A DNA stretch of 33,356 bases from Methanosarcina sp. 2.H.T.1A.6 (GCF_000979455.1 NZ_JJOY01000021.1:1-33356); one strand, 5' to 3'; counted from the stretch's first letter, positions 5,184 through 11,127 are shown. Made by a program: numbers and translations. Notes: a model not told the origin generated them from the letters alone.

Positions 5184-5732
5184 ATGAAAAAAATGTTATT
5201 GCTATTAGTGAGTGGTTTATTGATAGTTTGTATGGCAGGATCGGCGGTGGCAGGTTCTATTACAGTAGTTAATCCCTTGGATTTAACTATAAGTCCTGGA
5301 AGCACTTCTTTTATACATTCTGATTTAACTGTAACCGCAACAAATGATGCCGATTACACATTAGAACTGAAAACAACTGATGGACTTGTAGCATATATAG
5401 GAGATGAAGATTCAGATCTTAAAGTGGGTGATGCTACTAATAATCTGGCAACTTCTACGTCAATGCTAAGTACAACATTTCATTCAGCATCAAACGCTCA
5501 AACTCATTCAGGAAAAGTGTATGTCAAACTGGCTAACCCGGATGACGAGACTTTTAAGGGCGGAGAAGTACATATAACAGTTTACAGAGGAACAGATAAA
5601 GTTGAGACATCGATAGAAGTATCTTCAGCATCTATTGGTGTAAACGTTCCAGAATTTCCCACCGTCGCCCTCCCTATAGCAGCTGTAATTGGACTCGTTT
5701 TCATATTTGGACGTAAGAAAGAAGGGCTTTGA
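5184..5732 (+). CDS. PEF-CTERM secreted surface protein, copy 1
   Basis: This 182-residue protein has a Sec signal peptide (residues 1-24: Lys-Lys, a hydrophobic core, A-V-A cleavage site). The middle is beta-rich and Ser/Thr/Asp-rich with no known catalytic motif. The C-terminus has P-E-F at 156-158, a hydrophobic segment ending about residue 176, then a basic G-R-K-K tail. That tripartite tail is the PEF-CTERM sorting signal, which is processed by archaeosortase C in Methanosarcina relatives. The mature protein is therefore probably released from its transmembrane tail and anchored at the cell surface. It has a diverged tandem paralogue downstream. The role of the mature domain is unknown. 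No sortase gene is visible in the window. Confidence 0.85.
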   Translation: MKKMLLLLVSGLLIVCMAGSAVAGSITVVNPLDLTISPGSTSFIHSDLTVTATNDADYTLELKTTDGLVAYIGDEDSDLKVGDATNNLATSTSMLSTTFHSASNAQTHSGKVYVKLANPDDETFKGGEVHITVYRGTDKVETSIEVSSASIGVNVPEFPTVALPIAAVIGLVFIFGRKKEGL

Positions 5733-6478: not shown

Positions 6479-7036
6479 ATGAAGAAAATATTGTTATTAA
6501 TAGTGAGCGGTTTATTGATCGCTTGTATGGCCGGATCGGCAATGGCAAATCCGGCTGGAATGGAAGTTAGGTTAAACGGAAATTTAATAGGGCCTGGTAC
6601 TTCGATAACTGTAACACCAGGAAATGAGTACACTTTAGATGTAAAAACGTTCTTGATAGATTACGGATTTACATCTAACCAGGACATGCCAAGACAAATT
6701 ACAGTCAGTTCAACTAGTTTTGGTTCTGGCACGGTTGAAGCAAAACTACTGGCTCCAAGCGGAAGTTGGACAGCTTATGGTACAAGTGTTACTGATACCT
6801 ACACAGCAAAATACCCAACAGGTGACTATACCTATCAAGTTAAGTTCATAGCAAATTCAAAAGGCCATATTGATATAAGGGATGCAGGTTCAAACGATAA
6901 TTCTGCTACTTATACGATCGACGTGGCTCAAGAAGGATACGGCTTAAATATACCAGAATTCCCAACCGTTGCTCTCCCTATAGCAGCCATACTGGGACTA
7001 GTTTTCATATTCGGACGTAAGAAAGAAGAGCTGTGA
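6479..7036 (+). CDS. PEF-CTERM secreted surface protein, copy 2
   Basis: This 185-residue paralogue of the preceding gene has a near-identical signal peptide (1-24, cleavage after A-M-A) and a near-identical C-terminus (P-E-F at 159-161, hydrophobic stretch, G-R-K-K). The mature region is largely different in sequence: residues 30-150 are rich in Thr, Ser, Gly and Tyr and look like an all-beta fold. Conservation at the sorting ends with divergence in the middle fits two surface proteins exported by the same route but facing different targets. It is probably transcribed from its own promoter, given the upstream terminator and TATA box. The mature function is unknown. Confidence 0.85.
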   Translation: MKKILLLIVSGLLIACMAGSAMANPAGMEVRLNGNLIGPGTSITVTPGNEYTLDVKTFLIDYGFTSNQDMPRQITVSSTSFGSGTVEAKLLAPSGSWTAYGTSVTDTYTAKYPTGDYTYQVKFIANSKGHIDIRDAGSNDNSATYTIDVAQEGYGLNIPEFPTVALPIAAILGLVFIFGRKKEEL

Positions 7037-7840: not shown

Positions 7841-8461
7841 ATGGTAAGTGTCGGTCAGGAACTATTGAACGTTCCCTTTGGGGACATGATTCGAGAAATG
7901 GCCCTTGCGATTGCAGAGGGGCAGATCGCTCTGGACATGAATTCTGTGCAGGTTGCCCAGACTCTTGCAGCAACCCAGCTTGATGCAGGAAGCGTTGTAA
8001 TGTATATTGAAGAGACCACGGATGCTGACGGCAATGTGACTGCAAGCAATGTGGTTACTAATGACAAGCCCATGTCTCTTCTGACCTACGGGCTTGAACC
8101 TCGTTTCTACGAATTTACGGAATCGATTATCGAAGTGAAGATGACAATCACCATGATGAGGGAATCTTCAACAGAACTCACTTACGGCAGAGAATTCAAG
8201 TTAAACAACCAGTCAAAAGTCACCGGCAGCATGGAGTCCGGAGGGCTTGCAAAAATCCTCTTTGGAAAGAGCAAGGGGAGCTTTGAAAATACAACATCGG
8301 TTGCCTATACCTCCACGTTTAACGCAAAATATAGCTCAAGATTTTCCTTTAAGGAAGAAGGCACAAGCCTGCTCAGGACAACCCTCAGGCCTGTCCCTGC
8401 TCCGGAGAAGATGATTCCAAAGGTGACAGTCAAAGCTGCGGCACCAGCCAGCCCTAACTGA
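7841..8461 (+). CDS. Beta-rich protein of unknown function, first gene of the PASTA cluster (DUF2589-like?)
   Basis: The protein has 206 residues and no signal peptide or membrane segment. The N-terminal helix (residues 8-46: V-P-F-G-D-M-I-R-E-M-A-L-A-I-A-E-G-Q) is rich in Ala and Gln. Its pattern of helix, then L-D-M-N-S, recurs in the next gene (L-D-L-N-S). Residues 95-185 are predicted strands, including I-I-E-V-K-M-T-I-T-M and a final strand ending L-R-P-V-P-A-P. The tail is Pro/Ala/Lys-rich. The overall plan recalls DUF2589 proteins, but this is from memory and tentative. The ATG follows AAGGGG by about 10 nt. A TATA-like TTTATACTA near 7780 is a possible promoter. The 7577-7840 gap shows nothing else. 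It probably acts in the cytosol with its neighbours. Confidence 0.75.
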   Translation: MVSVGQELLNVPFGDMIREMALAIAEGQIALDMNSVQVAQTLAATQLDAGSVVMYIEETTDADGNVTASNVVTNDKPMSLLTYGLEPRFYEFTESIIEVKMTITMMRESSTELTYGREFKLNNQSKVTGSMESGGLAKILFGKSKGSFENTTSVAYTSTFNAKYSSRFSFKEEGTSLLRTTLRPVPAPEKMIPKVTVKAAAPASPN

Positions 8462-8605
8462 AGCCTTCAATAAAAGATTTTTTACTACAGGAAGGTTCTC
8501 TTAAAATTACGGGGGACCTGACTGTAGTCACGGCAGGTATGGCTTTAAAATACCCTTTTTGCAGGCTGGCTGTATTGCCGTGTTTTTCTATACCCTTTCC
8601 GGGAT

Positions 8606-8670
8606 TTATTTCAAGGAGTTATTTCAAGGACTTATTTCAAGGACTTATTTCAAGGACTTATTTCAAGGAG
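8606..8670 (+). repeat. 13-bp tandem repeat carrying Shine-Dalgarno cores
   Basis: Five units of TTATTTCAAGGAG/C are joined without gaps, with TTATT of a sixth. The first and last units end AAGGAG and the three between end AAGGAC. The last AAGGAG (8665-8670) lies 8 nt before GTG 8679, the proposed start of the next gene. Because 13 is not a multiple of three, copy-number change would shift any frame running through the array while leaving the GTG start intact. Confidence 0.95.
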
Positions 8671-8678
8671 TTATTATT

Positions 8679-9083
8679 GTGGTTAATAACGGGGAAGAAA
8701 TCGGAGAAGTGCTTATTACCCCTCTTTCCAGGCTTCTGGGAGAAATCGGGCGTTCCGTTGCTGAGACTCAGCGGACTCTTGACCTGAATTCCATAAAGAC
8801 CCAGATAAAGATTGATGAAGAAAAAGCCCTCAGCGAGTATGACATTCAGGCTGCATGGTATCATATCCCTGAGGTCGACCTTGAGCTCAAGATGTCGCTT
8901 ACTGTGAAACTTGAAGAGGAACGGGACTCTAAAAACCGGGTCAGGGGCTACAGGCCTGTCCTCAACGCCTCTCCCCTTAATGCCTCGTACAACTCACTTT
9001 ACAGTTACGACGTGCAGGGCTCAAGCTGCATCAAAGCAAAAATAGTGTCCATTCCTGCATATTCAAAGTTAAGGGAGGAATAA
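8679..9083 (+). CDS. Small beta-rich paralogue of the preceding gene
   Basis: The GTG start gives 134 residues. I chose it because a perfect AAGGAG lies 8 nt upstream, and because homology to the 7841 protein starts here (E-V-L-I-T-P-L-S-R-L-L-G-E-I against V-P-F-G-D-M-I-R-E-M). An ATG at 8559 would add 40 residues translated from the 13-bp repeat, which is unlikely. An N-terminal helix with L-D-L-N-S is followed by strands with E-L-K-M-S-L-T-V-K-L and ends C-I-K-A-K-I-V-S-I-P. No signal peptide or membrane segment is seen. Function is unknown. The 8462-8605 gap is short and pyrimidine-rich. The gene probably belongs to one transcription unit with 7841 and 9121. Confidence 0.7.
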   Translation: MVNNGEEIGEVLITPLSRLLGEIGRSVAETQRTLDLNSIKTQIKIDEEKALSEYDIQAAWYHIPEVDLELKMSLTVKLEEERDSKNRVRGYRPVLNASPLNASYNSLYSYDVQGSSCIKAKIVSIPAYSKLREE

Positions 9084-9120
9084 TGCCCTTTTCAGGAAAT
9101 GATCTTTCAGGAGGAAGGGA

Positions 9121-10833
9121 ATGAAGAATATAAGCGAACTCAGGAGCAGCCTGGACGTCTTCAGGAAAGCAGGAAAAATAGATGCGGGCAGTTATTCCAG
9201 CATAATAACTAAACTGAAGGAGACGGAAACAGAATTTGAATCACTTCAAAAGGAAGCCCTTGTCTATAAAGAAAATTCAGACAGGCTGCTCAGGGAAAAA
9301 CTCGTCCTTGACCAGGAAAAAAACAGCCTTGCAGCGCAGGTGAAAAAGCTCTCAAATGAGAAAGCAGAGCTTGAGTCCCGGATTTCCATTTTGCAGAAAA
9401 GCAGGCCTGTACTCTCTTCTTCAAATCTTGTTAGCTCTTTTGCATCCTCACTTGCAGAAATGGACAAAGGACTTAAGAAAGTTCAGTCCGGTCCAAAGTA
9501 CCTTGTCAGCAATATGAATGTGACCTTAAAAACCAATATCGCTCTCGAAGGGGCAGAACTGAGGTTCCAGATGCCAAAAGCCGATGACATCATCAGCCCC
9601 GAAAACCTCAGCACAATAGAATTCTCCCTAAAGGCGGTTCCCGAAAAGCCGGGTATTGACTCTTATAAGGAGGTCCCGGAACTTGTGGGGCTCTCAAAAG
9701 AAGAAGCCGAAAGCAAACTGTTTGAATCAGGCTTTAAGGCAGGAGACGTCCTTGAAAAAGAAAGCAGCAGACCTCAGGGTACGGTCATAGCCCAGCTCCC
9801 CTCGGCAGGCTCCCTTGCAGAACCGGGGGCAACTGTAGACCTTACAGTTTCCAGGATTTATTCTGTAAAAGTCCCGGAACTTGTGGGGCTCGGGCTTGAA
9901 ACCGCAAAAGCCCTTATTGAAAAATCGCGGCTCCGGCTTGAAGGGGTTAAAGAAAAGCCTTCGGACAAAAACCAGGGCAAAGTCCTTGCCCAGAGCCTCA
10001 ATCCGGGTTCTGAAGTCGAAGTTAACTCTGCAATTGTCCTGACGATTTCTACTAAGATCTTCAAAGTCCCAGGCCTGCTCGGGCTTGAGCTTGAGAGTGC
10101 AAAACAGGTCATCGAAAAGTCCGGGCTCCAGTTGGGCAGGGTAAAGGAGCGGTTCTCAGACGGGAAACCAGGAGTTGTACTTACTCAGAGCCCAAACCCC
10201 GGGCTTGAAATAGAAGCAAACTCAAAAGTTGACCTTGTCGTTTCAGCAGGAGAAAAGGAAGTAGTGCTTGAAAAACCCTTGAGGACTTTCCCCGAAACTG
10301 TTGTAAAAGAAACAGTAAATAAAGCTCCGTTTGAAACTCCCTCAAAACTGCAATCCGAAACCACATACAAAGTATCCGGTACAACTTCTGCCAGTGCACC
10401 TGCCGAAGCTCAGGTAAAAATCTCTGCAGAAGCTCAGGTACAATCCCAGACAGAATCCTCAGTTAAATCTCCATCCCAGGTTGAAAATTCAGTAAAGCCT
10501 CTGAATGAGGAAGCTATTTTCAGGGGAACCACTTCAGGAGAAATCACTCTAAAACCTCCTGTCCCTCTGAAAAAAGAAACTGTAGAACCTCCGAAACCAG
10601 AACCTAAATTAGTTCCTGGCGTTATCGGGATGTCTCTTGAAAAGGCGGTCTCTGTACTCAGGGCTCAGATGATAAATGTTGGAAATATTTCGGAAGCCAT
10701 TTCGAGAGCTGCTGCCGGCACAGTTATACGTCAGAATCCGGGTGCAGGTTCTACGGTTAACCCATCGGTCCCGATGAATCTTGTAGTCTCAAAACAGGCG
10801 CCTGGAACTCAAATGCACAGGAGCATTCTCTAA
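9121..10833 (+). CDS. Cytosolic coiled-coil protein with four PASTA repeats
   Basis: The protein has 570 residues and begins at an ATG behind AGGAGGAAGG. Residues 30-95 form a Leu/Glu/Lys coiled coil. Residues 120-175 are beta-rich with V-T-L-K-T-N-I-A-L and end F-S-L-K-A-V-P, resembling the strands of the two preceding proteins. Three PASTA domains follow (about 184-244, 250-310, 315-376), each with V-P-x-L-x-G, an Ala/Glu helix, V-x-x-Q-x-P-x-x-G and V-x-L-x-V-S. A Pro/Ser/Lys linker (377-496) leads to a fourth PASTA domain (497-557). PASTA domains usually sit outside the cell on kinases and penicillin-binding proteins. Here there is no kinase, signal peptide or membrane segment, and the cells have no peptidoglycan, so the ligand is probably a protein. 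The domain call is firm; the function is unknown. Confidence 0.85.
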   Translation: MKNISELRSSLDVFRKAGKIDAGSYSSIITKLKETETEFESLQKEALVYKENSDRLLREKLVLDQEKNSLAAQVKKLSNEKAELESRISILQKSRPVLSSSNLVSSFASSLAEMDKGLKKVQSGPKYLVSNMNVTLKTNIALEGAELRFQMPKADDIISPENLSTIEFSLKAVPEKPGIDSYKEVPELVGLSKEEAESKLFESGFKAGDVLEKESSRPQGTVIAQLPSAGSLAEPGATVDLTVSRIYSVKVPELVGLGLETAKALIEKSRLRLEGVKEKPSDKNQGKVLAQSLNPGSEVEVNSAIVLTISTKIFKVPGLLGLELESAKQVIEKSGLQLGRVKERFSDGKPGVVLTQSPNPGLEIEANSKVDLVVSAGEKEVVLEKPLRTFPETVVKETVNKAPFETPSKLQSETTYKVSGTTSASAPAEAQVKISAEAQVQSQTESSVKSPSQVENSVKPLNEEAIFRGTTSGEITLKPPVPLKKETVEPPKPEPKLVPGVIGMSLEKAVSVLRAQMINVGNISEAISRAAAGTVIRQNPGAGSTVNPSVPMNLVVSKQAPGTQMHRSIL

Positions 10834-10863
10834 AGGCTCAAACTTTGATCGGCAGGTTTATCG

Positions 10864-11127
10864 ATGCCAATTGAACCACATCTTATAAAGGTTGCAGAAA
10901 ATGCTACTGCCTTTCAGGTTCAGGGAATTCTTAAAGTGGTTCTGGGAACCGGAGGGCGAATTGAAATGGTAACAGGAAAAACAATTATAGCCAGCCTTGA
11001 CAGCAACTATGCCGAATTAGTAAAGAAAACACCGGGCGTGGCGCTGGCGGGTGGGATCAGCTTCAGGGGTCGGAAGATTCCTAAAATCATAAAAAAGGTT
11101 TCAGACGAAAAACAGGCAGAATCCTGA
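10864..11127 (+). CDS. Small alpha/beta protein of unknown function, last gene of the PASTA cluster
   Basis: This 87-residue protein starts at an ATG 30 nt after the PASTA gene; GGCAGG upstream is a weak ribosome binding site. Strand and helix patterns (G-R-I-E-M-V-T-G-K-T-I-I-A-S-L, then a helix with N-Y-A-E-L-V-K-K-T-P-G-V) suggest a small ferredoxin-like fold, as in propeptide-inhibitor-like domains. That is a guess. The C-terminus is Lys/Arg-rich. No signal peptide is present. Orientation and short spacing place it in the same operon as the PASTA protein. Confidence 0.7.
   Translation: MPIEPHLIKVAENATAFQVQGILKVVLGTGGRIEMVTGKTIIASLDSNYAELVKKTPGVALAGGISFRGRKIPKIIKKVSDEKQAES

Follow-up and report, generated by a model that had tools for sequence, protein, structure and literature searches.

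Results

The window analysed here, the whole 33,356-nucleotide stretch of DNA from Methanosarcina sp. 2.H.T.1A.6 (GCF_000979455.1 NZ_JJOY01000021.1:1-33356), carries a cluster of four genes, here termed A, B, P and D, which a sequence-only reading had taken to encode a cytosolic multiprotein assembly, the two small proteins binding the beta module of the PASTA protein. The four open reading frames (ORFs) were confirmed, all lying in one direction as had been claimed, and comprise the following parts.

7841–8461, + strand: gene A, 206 amino acids; N-terminal helical segment and beta module ending LRPVP
8602–8675, + strand: 13-bp tandem repeat, GGACTTATTTCAA × 5.7, inside the A–B gap and stopping 3 bp short of the GTG of B
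8679–9083, + strand: gene B, 134 amino acids; long helix, then three strands ending IVSIP
9121–10833, + strand: gene P, 570 amino acids; coiled coil, beta module and four PASTA repeats
9121–9396, + strand: P residues 1–92, predicted coiled coil (from the model helix and weak Pfam matches)
9403–9654, + strand: P residues ~95–178, predicted helix and three-strand module ending LKAVP, homologous to B
9670–10248, + strand: P residues 184–376, PASTA repeats 1–3 (Pfam PF03793)
10615–10806, + strand: P residues 499–562, PASTA repeat 4 (Pfam PF03793), preceded by a low-complexity linker
10864–11127, + strand: gene D, 87 amino acids; small alpha/beta protein, the final gene of the cluster in Methanosarcinales

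The short intergenic gaps described previously hold for B–P (37 bp) and P–D (30 bp), but not for A–B, where 217 bp separate the genes and include the tandem repeat. Each copy of this repeat contains an AAGGA ribosome-binding-like motif; the repeat occurs at a single site in the genome and was also seen in one near relative (L092). Gene B, with its GTG start, is nested in a longer ORF beginning with TTG. In P, the helix assigned to the coiled coil extends up to about residue 92 in the structure model of residues 60–184, with weak Pfam matches of coiled-coil type, and the PASTA model PF03793 matches four stretches above the Pfam cut-off (180.4 bits, E 5.8e-54). Judging by its sequence pattern, D may have an Inhibitor I9 or ferredoxin-like fold (beta-alpha-beta-beta-alpha-beta); it has no match in Pfam or in PDB sequence searches. 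In agreement with the sequence-only reading, no signal peptide or membrane segment was found in A, B, P or D by Kyte–Doolittle analysis in 19-residue windows, the best means (1.02, 0.72, 1.54 and 0.95, respectively) all being below the 2.4–2.5 of the positive controls, a pair of small exported proteins bearing PEF-CTERM sorting signals and encoded directly upstream of the cluster (5184–5732 and 6479–7036). Because export signals are absent, we infer a cytosolic location for all four proteins.

Comparison by hhalign confirmed that the two small proteins are related (98–99.8%, best E 7e-30), and the A–B similarity is also detected by BLAST in relatives (E ~1e-5). Direct profile comparison of B with the P module was weak (4.7%, E 0.008), superposing the first strand (ELKM / LKTN; LxLKT) and the terminal hydrophobic-x-P strand. 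With intermediates, namely the third protein of the DUF2589 clusters described below and short bacterial homologues (Sphaerotilus, Rhodobacteraceae), the comparison reached 85% (E 5.7e-6) and a score of 36.4, whereas column-shuffled controls scored at most 15.6 and the reversed control gave 0.5%; the DUF2589-cluster proteins alone as intermediates gave 43%. When a hidden Markov model (HMM) of P modules and DUF2589-cluster third proteins was searched across 8065 ORFs from all loci, its own family was followed by 29 ORFs, 25 of them B proteins and the other four P-like or adjoining members of the same clusters, with no unrelated ORF up to E 0.1. By these comparisons the beta module of P is a third, more distant copy of the A/B module, which upholds the resemblance claimed earlier; the common unit of A, B and P is, however, a helix plus three strands and not the strands only. 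The first of these strands is conserved (EVxLELKM / MNVxLKTN), and the last one ends hydrophobic-x-P.

The AlphaFold2 models of B (predicted local distance difference test (pLDDT) 71.8, predicted template modelling score (pTM) 0.54) and of P residues 60–184 (pLDDT 79.3, pTM 0.49) have, at moderate confidence, the same order of elements, that is, short strand, helix, long strand, strand and last strand. Searches of the two models against PDB gave best Foldseek E values of 0.25 (B) and 2.1 (P module) and best VIA-align matches with Z 3.1 (root-mean-square deviation (rmsd) 2.1, 46 aligned) and Z 2.5 (rmsd 5.0, 56 aligned), and no convincing solved fold was found for either. A viral model, A0A516L4Y6 (148 amino acids), which carries no name in the tables, resembles B over its full length (E 0.005, TM 0.57/0.52). 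A phage origin is not supported, no relative having been found by tblastn of B in phages or by profile scans of viral contigs.

The Pfam model of DUF2589, PF11655 (cut-off 23 bits), matches neither A nor B at E up to 10, and has no match in the window's genome. In profile–profile comparison, the A family aligned with the DUF2589 set over 159 columns (88.4%, E 2.8e-6), the real score being 44.4 against a shuffled maximum of 21.4, with 0.9% for the reversed control. The third protein of the DUF2589 clusters aligned with the P module (76%, E 2.3e-5), and B aligned weakly with the DUF2589 set (15.9%). The likeness to DUF2589 named in the sequence-only reading is judged to be, for A, a real but distant homology, although it escapes the Pfam model. 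DUF2589 was found in none of 35 genomes with relatives of A, in a run whose controls were also silent; the same model matched 11 genomes elsewhere. The only paper found on such genes reports that AF0414–AF0417 of A. fulgidus, genes of the DUF2589 kind, are up-regulated on lactate (PMC3949148), and no function is known for DUF2589 itself. An N-acetylmuramidase-type gene follows the DUF2589 cluster in L172 (MT839761; Pfam-confirmed) and in L173 (by sequence likeness), L172 being a 4-kb fecal contig filed as bacteriophage in which no phage structural gene was recognised. A gene for an AAA ATPase resembling the proteasome-activating nucleotidase lies near a DUF2589 cluster or a divergent A-like cluster (L074 and L048, one each), which may be coincidence.

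Each of the four genes was searched separately in 150 genomes of the order. The P module is present in 40 genomes, all of which also have A and B (A being truncated in G124), and D is present in 39; the sole exception (G136) has the cluster in another form. Beyond these 40 genomes there are only fragments (G057, G073 and G133), lone genes whose partners possibly lie beyond the contig end (G066, G005 and G038) and one divergent version (G129). The order A-B-P-D is kept in every locus read, and 50 fetched four-gene loci, some of which duplicate the same locus, each have their genes on a single strand, the median gaps being 72, 14 and 5 bp. The four genes are thus inherited all-or-none and vary together, 39 of the 150 genomes having all four, and neither of the outcomes that would have spoken against the sequence-only reading, scattered genes or dissimilar beta modules, was seen. 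In Methanosarcinaceae, the cluster lies 3–5 kb upstream of uL3; A is conserved like the ribosomal proteins uL3/uL4 (73–76%, against 69–71% for uL3), and P and D evolve faster. The locus is under loss in Methanosarcina, where remnants carry stops and deletions; decaying operons with a truncated A, A/B fragments or a lone D remnant were seen in L050, L085, L086 and L088 and in genome G133.

The cluster, which is decaying in parts of Methanosarcina, is not peculiar to that genus: many bacteria and many archaea carry it. Scanning the A profile across 84,980 species genomes gave 69 loci, with relatives of A occurring, besides Methanosarcinales, in Acidimicrobia, Myxococcota, Clostridia, Fibrobacter, Bacteroidales, deltaproteobacterial metagenome-assembled genomes (MAGs), Rhodobacteraceae, Methanophagales, Methanomassiliicoccaceae and Methanimicrococcus. 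Two arrangements prevail. Form I of the cluster (Methanosarcinales, Acidimicrobia) consists of A, B, a protein with coiled coil, module and a varying number of PASTA repeats, with or without helix-hairpin-helix (HhH), and D, whereas Form II (most other lineages) consists of HhH-B-PASTA, a coiled coil-module protein, A and A'; a Methanophagales locus (L128) has A, B and the module alone. PASTA and DUF4332/HhH were Pfam-confirmed in representatives; the number of PASTA repeats ranges from 2 to 12. Because the two forms and L128 differ in their attachments, the invariant core is A, B and the P module, with genes A and B encoding core subunits, and PASTA and HhH are exchangeable, optional attachments borne on P in Form I and on B in Form II. 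The central place that the sequence-only reading had given to PASTA does not stand, as PASTA-less relatives exist (L128, L138, L139, L142, L149 and L153) and bacterial relatives carry PASTA mostly on B rather than on P.

Several members of the wider family have further peculiarities. A second, far longer P paralogue of 1324 amino acids, with 12 PASTA repeats and an extended coiled coil, lies upstream of A in L035 (8550–12524, − strand), and similar copies are present in G120 and G128. A 693-residue Archangium protein (L127, 3662–5743) begins and ends with segments resembling A/B, between which lies an OmpA domain. Downstream of A' in L135–L152 there is a recurrent acidic low-complexity protein with a motif like LLxxSxLLDxDF or LLSDEYDD, and there are tetratricopeptide repeat (TPR) proteins followed by variable enzyme-like genes. 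An Acidimicrobia MAG has a D-like gene beside A (hhalign 90%); look-alikes of D in Sphaerotilus and Vibrio were rejected (hhalign 0.7% and 0.2%).

Discussion

The results described above suggest that A, B, P and D likely form one intracellular machine, the genes of which are kept or lost as a unit in archaea and bacteria. In the reading that we prefer, and to which we assign a probability of about 0.6, the four genes specify a hetero-oligomeric scaffold in the cytosol, whose three subunits are related and whose tails can be exchanged. Three related modules are encoded together, two of them making up small proteins and the third following a coiled coil, which suggests co-assembly, and the shifting of a domain from protein to protein within a single operon would imply that these proteins work in one complex. 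In the predicted assembly, A, B and P would each bear a module of one shared type, in which a small antiparallel three-strand sheet follows a helix, and these modules would most likely pack together into one mixed assembly, either particle or fibre; taken singly, the sheets appear incomplete and their models reach only moderate confidence, as may be expected where proteins complement one another. The coiled coil of P would multimerise the assembly and set its multimeric state, the PASTA repeats (and, in relatives, also the helix-hairpin-helix) would project as exchangeable adaptors gripping a partner or cargo, and D may be an accessory subunit. Since Methanosarcina has no murein, the PASTA repeats would have to bind something else or act as a spacer.

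Several points weigh against such a scaffold. Because A and the P module gave no significant match when compared directly, the link between them runs through B. The models of B and the P module are of moderate confidence (pLDDT 72 and 79, pTM ~0.5) and have no convincing match to a solved fold. The loss of the cluster in many Methanosarcina shows that it is dispensable, and the joint inheritance of neighbouring genes may also stem from a linear pathway instead of one particle. The physical assembly, the pairing of the modules and the adaptor role of PASTA are deduced rather than demonstrated.

Among the other explanations, A, B, P and D may act in series to signal or regulate, PASTA sensing a small ligand or glycan in the cell and no fixed large assembly being formed. 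PASTA repeats of bacterial kinases bind peptidoglycan fragments, which speaks for this possibility, as does the variable repeat number (2 to 12); we nevertheless regard it as unlikely, since several otherwise complete clusters have no PASTA, co-assembly accounts better than a chain for the presence of three homologous modules in a single operon, and the loci read show no kinase, phosphatase or DNA-binding effector as a fusion partner or constant neighbour. Also improbable is an enzyme-loading or enzyme-displaying scaffold for use against other cells, an enzyme-carrying particle of which the archaeal version would be the scaffold only. About nine Form II loci have variable enzyme-like genes after the core, including Amidase_2 (L135), DUF6765 and Zn_dep_PLPC (L138, L139 and L145), HExxH proteins (L137, L146 and L150) and a calcineurin-like protein (L152), and the OmpA peptidoglycan-binding domain within the A-like protein of Archangium and the muramidase genes near DUF2589 clusters point the same way, but many Form II loci and all of the Methanosarcinales have no such gene, and adjacency alone is no proof of cargo. 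A contractile, phage-tail-like injection system, with A, B and P binding the tail tube or spike and carrying enzymes, is very unlikely. In an Acidimicrobia MAG (L125), D-like, A, B and P genes are closely preceded by a T4 gp19-type tail tube gene (510–941, E 3e-36), amidase, Zn-dependent phospholipase C-like and possible metallopeptidase genes (the last with a sub-threshold eCIS_core match, E 0.058) follow some Form II clusters, and N-acetylmuramidase genes lie near DUF2589 clusters, but a gp19 tail tube gene is absent from the genome of the window, gp19 is present in 46 of the 150 genomes of the order and shared with 10 of the 40 cluster genomes (~12 expected by chance, hence no association), only 9 of a further 35 genomes carrying relatives of A have it, and no sheath or baseplate gene was recognised beside A in the translations read, no sheath profile having been run and the L125 contig ending at the tube gene.

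Returning to the scaffold, a broader proposal, which we offer tentatively and regard as doubtful, is that it represents an undescribed class of cytosolic assembly in archaea and bacteria, in which three homologous helix-plus-sheet subunits would use swappable PASTA/HhH tails to recruit lineage-specific cargo enzymes. If true, this would be a new type of intracellular assembly, conserved like ribosomal proteins where it is kept and distributed across distant phyla; PASTA domains would have a role inside the cell, away from peptidoglycan, and the scattered DUF2589 genes would be distant versions of the same module. The assembly would be one absent from the searched annotation libraries, with hosts open to genetics in Methanosarcina and the Myxococcota relatives.

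The predicted A-B-P-D assembly is worth comparing with known families and systems. Searches of A, B and D gave no useful match in Pfam, NCBIfam, PHROGs and PADLOC, including the PADLOC anti-phage defence models, and no significant match in PDB sequence searches with their profiles; the PADLOC PD-T4-6 matches in P fall on the PASTA repeats, and other matches of P are weak. We found no description of an A-B-P-D system in the searched libraries and open-access papers, nor, in the latter, any work on DUF4332 with PASTA, on DUF6765 or on cytosolic archaeal PASTA proteins. Like PknB/StkP-type PASTA kinases and penicillin-binding proteins, P has genuine PASTA repeats, four in number, but it has no kinase or transpeptidase domain, membrane segment or export signal, and PASTA is here optional and shifts between subunits. 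P does not belong among PASTA kinases or cell-wall sensors, having no Pfam kinase match and no hydrophobic segment; the PknB_PASTA_kin equivalog reaches 133.8 of 450 bits on P, across the PASTA part. The DUF4332/helix-hairpin-helix proteins share a domain with relatives of P (at the C-terminus) or of B (at the N-terminus), whereas the P of the window does not carry it. No characterised system in the libraries and papers searched has the A-B-P core, and DUF2589, to which it is most closely related, is uncharacterised too. In the DUF2589 clusters of Archaeoglobi-like genomes, although neither PASTA, HhH nor D was recognised in those read, two adjacent related small proteins are likewise followed by a third protein of helix plus strands.

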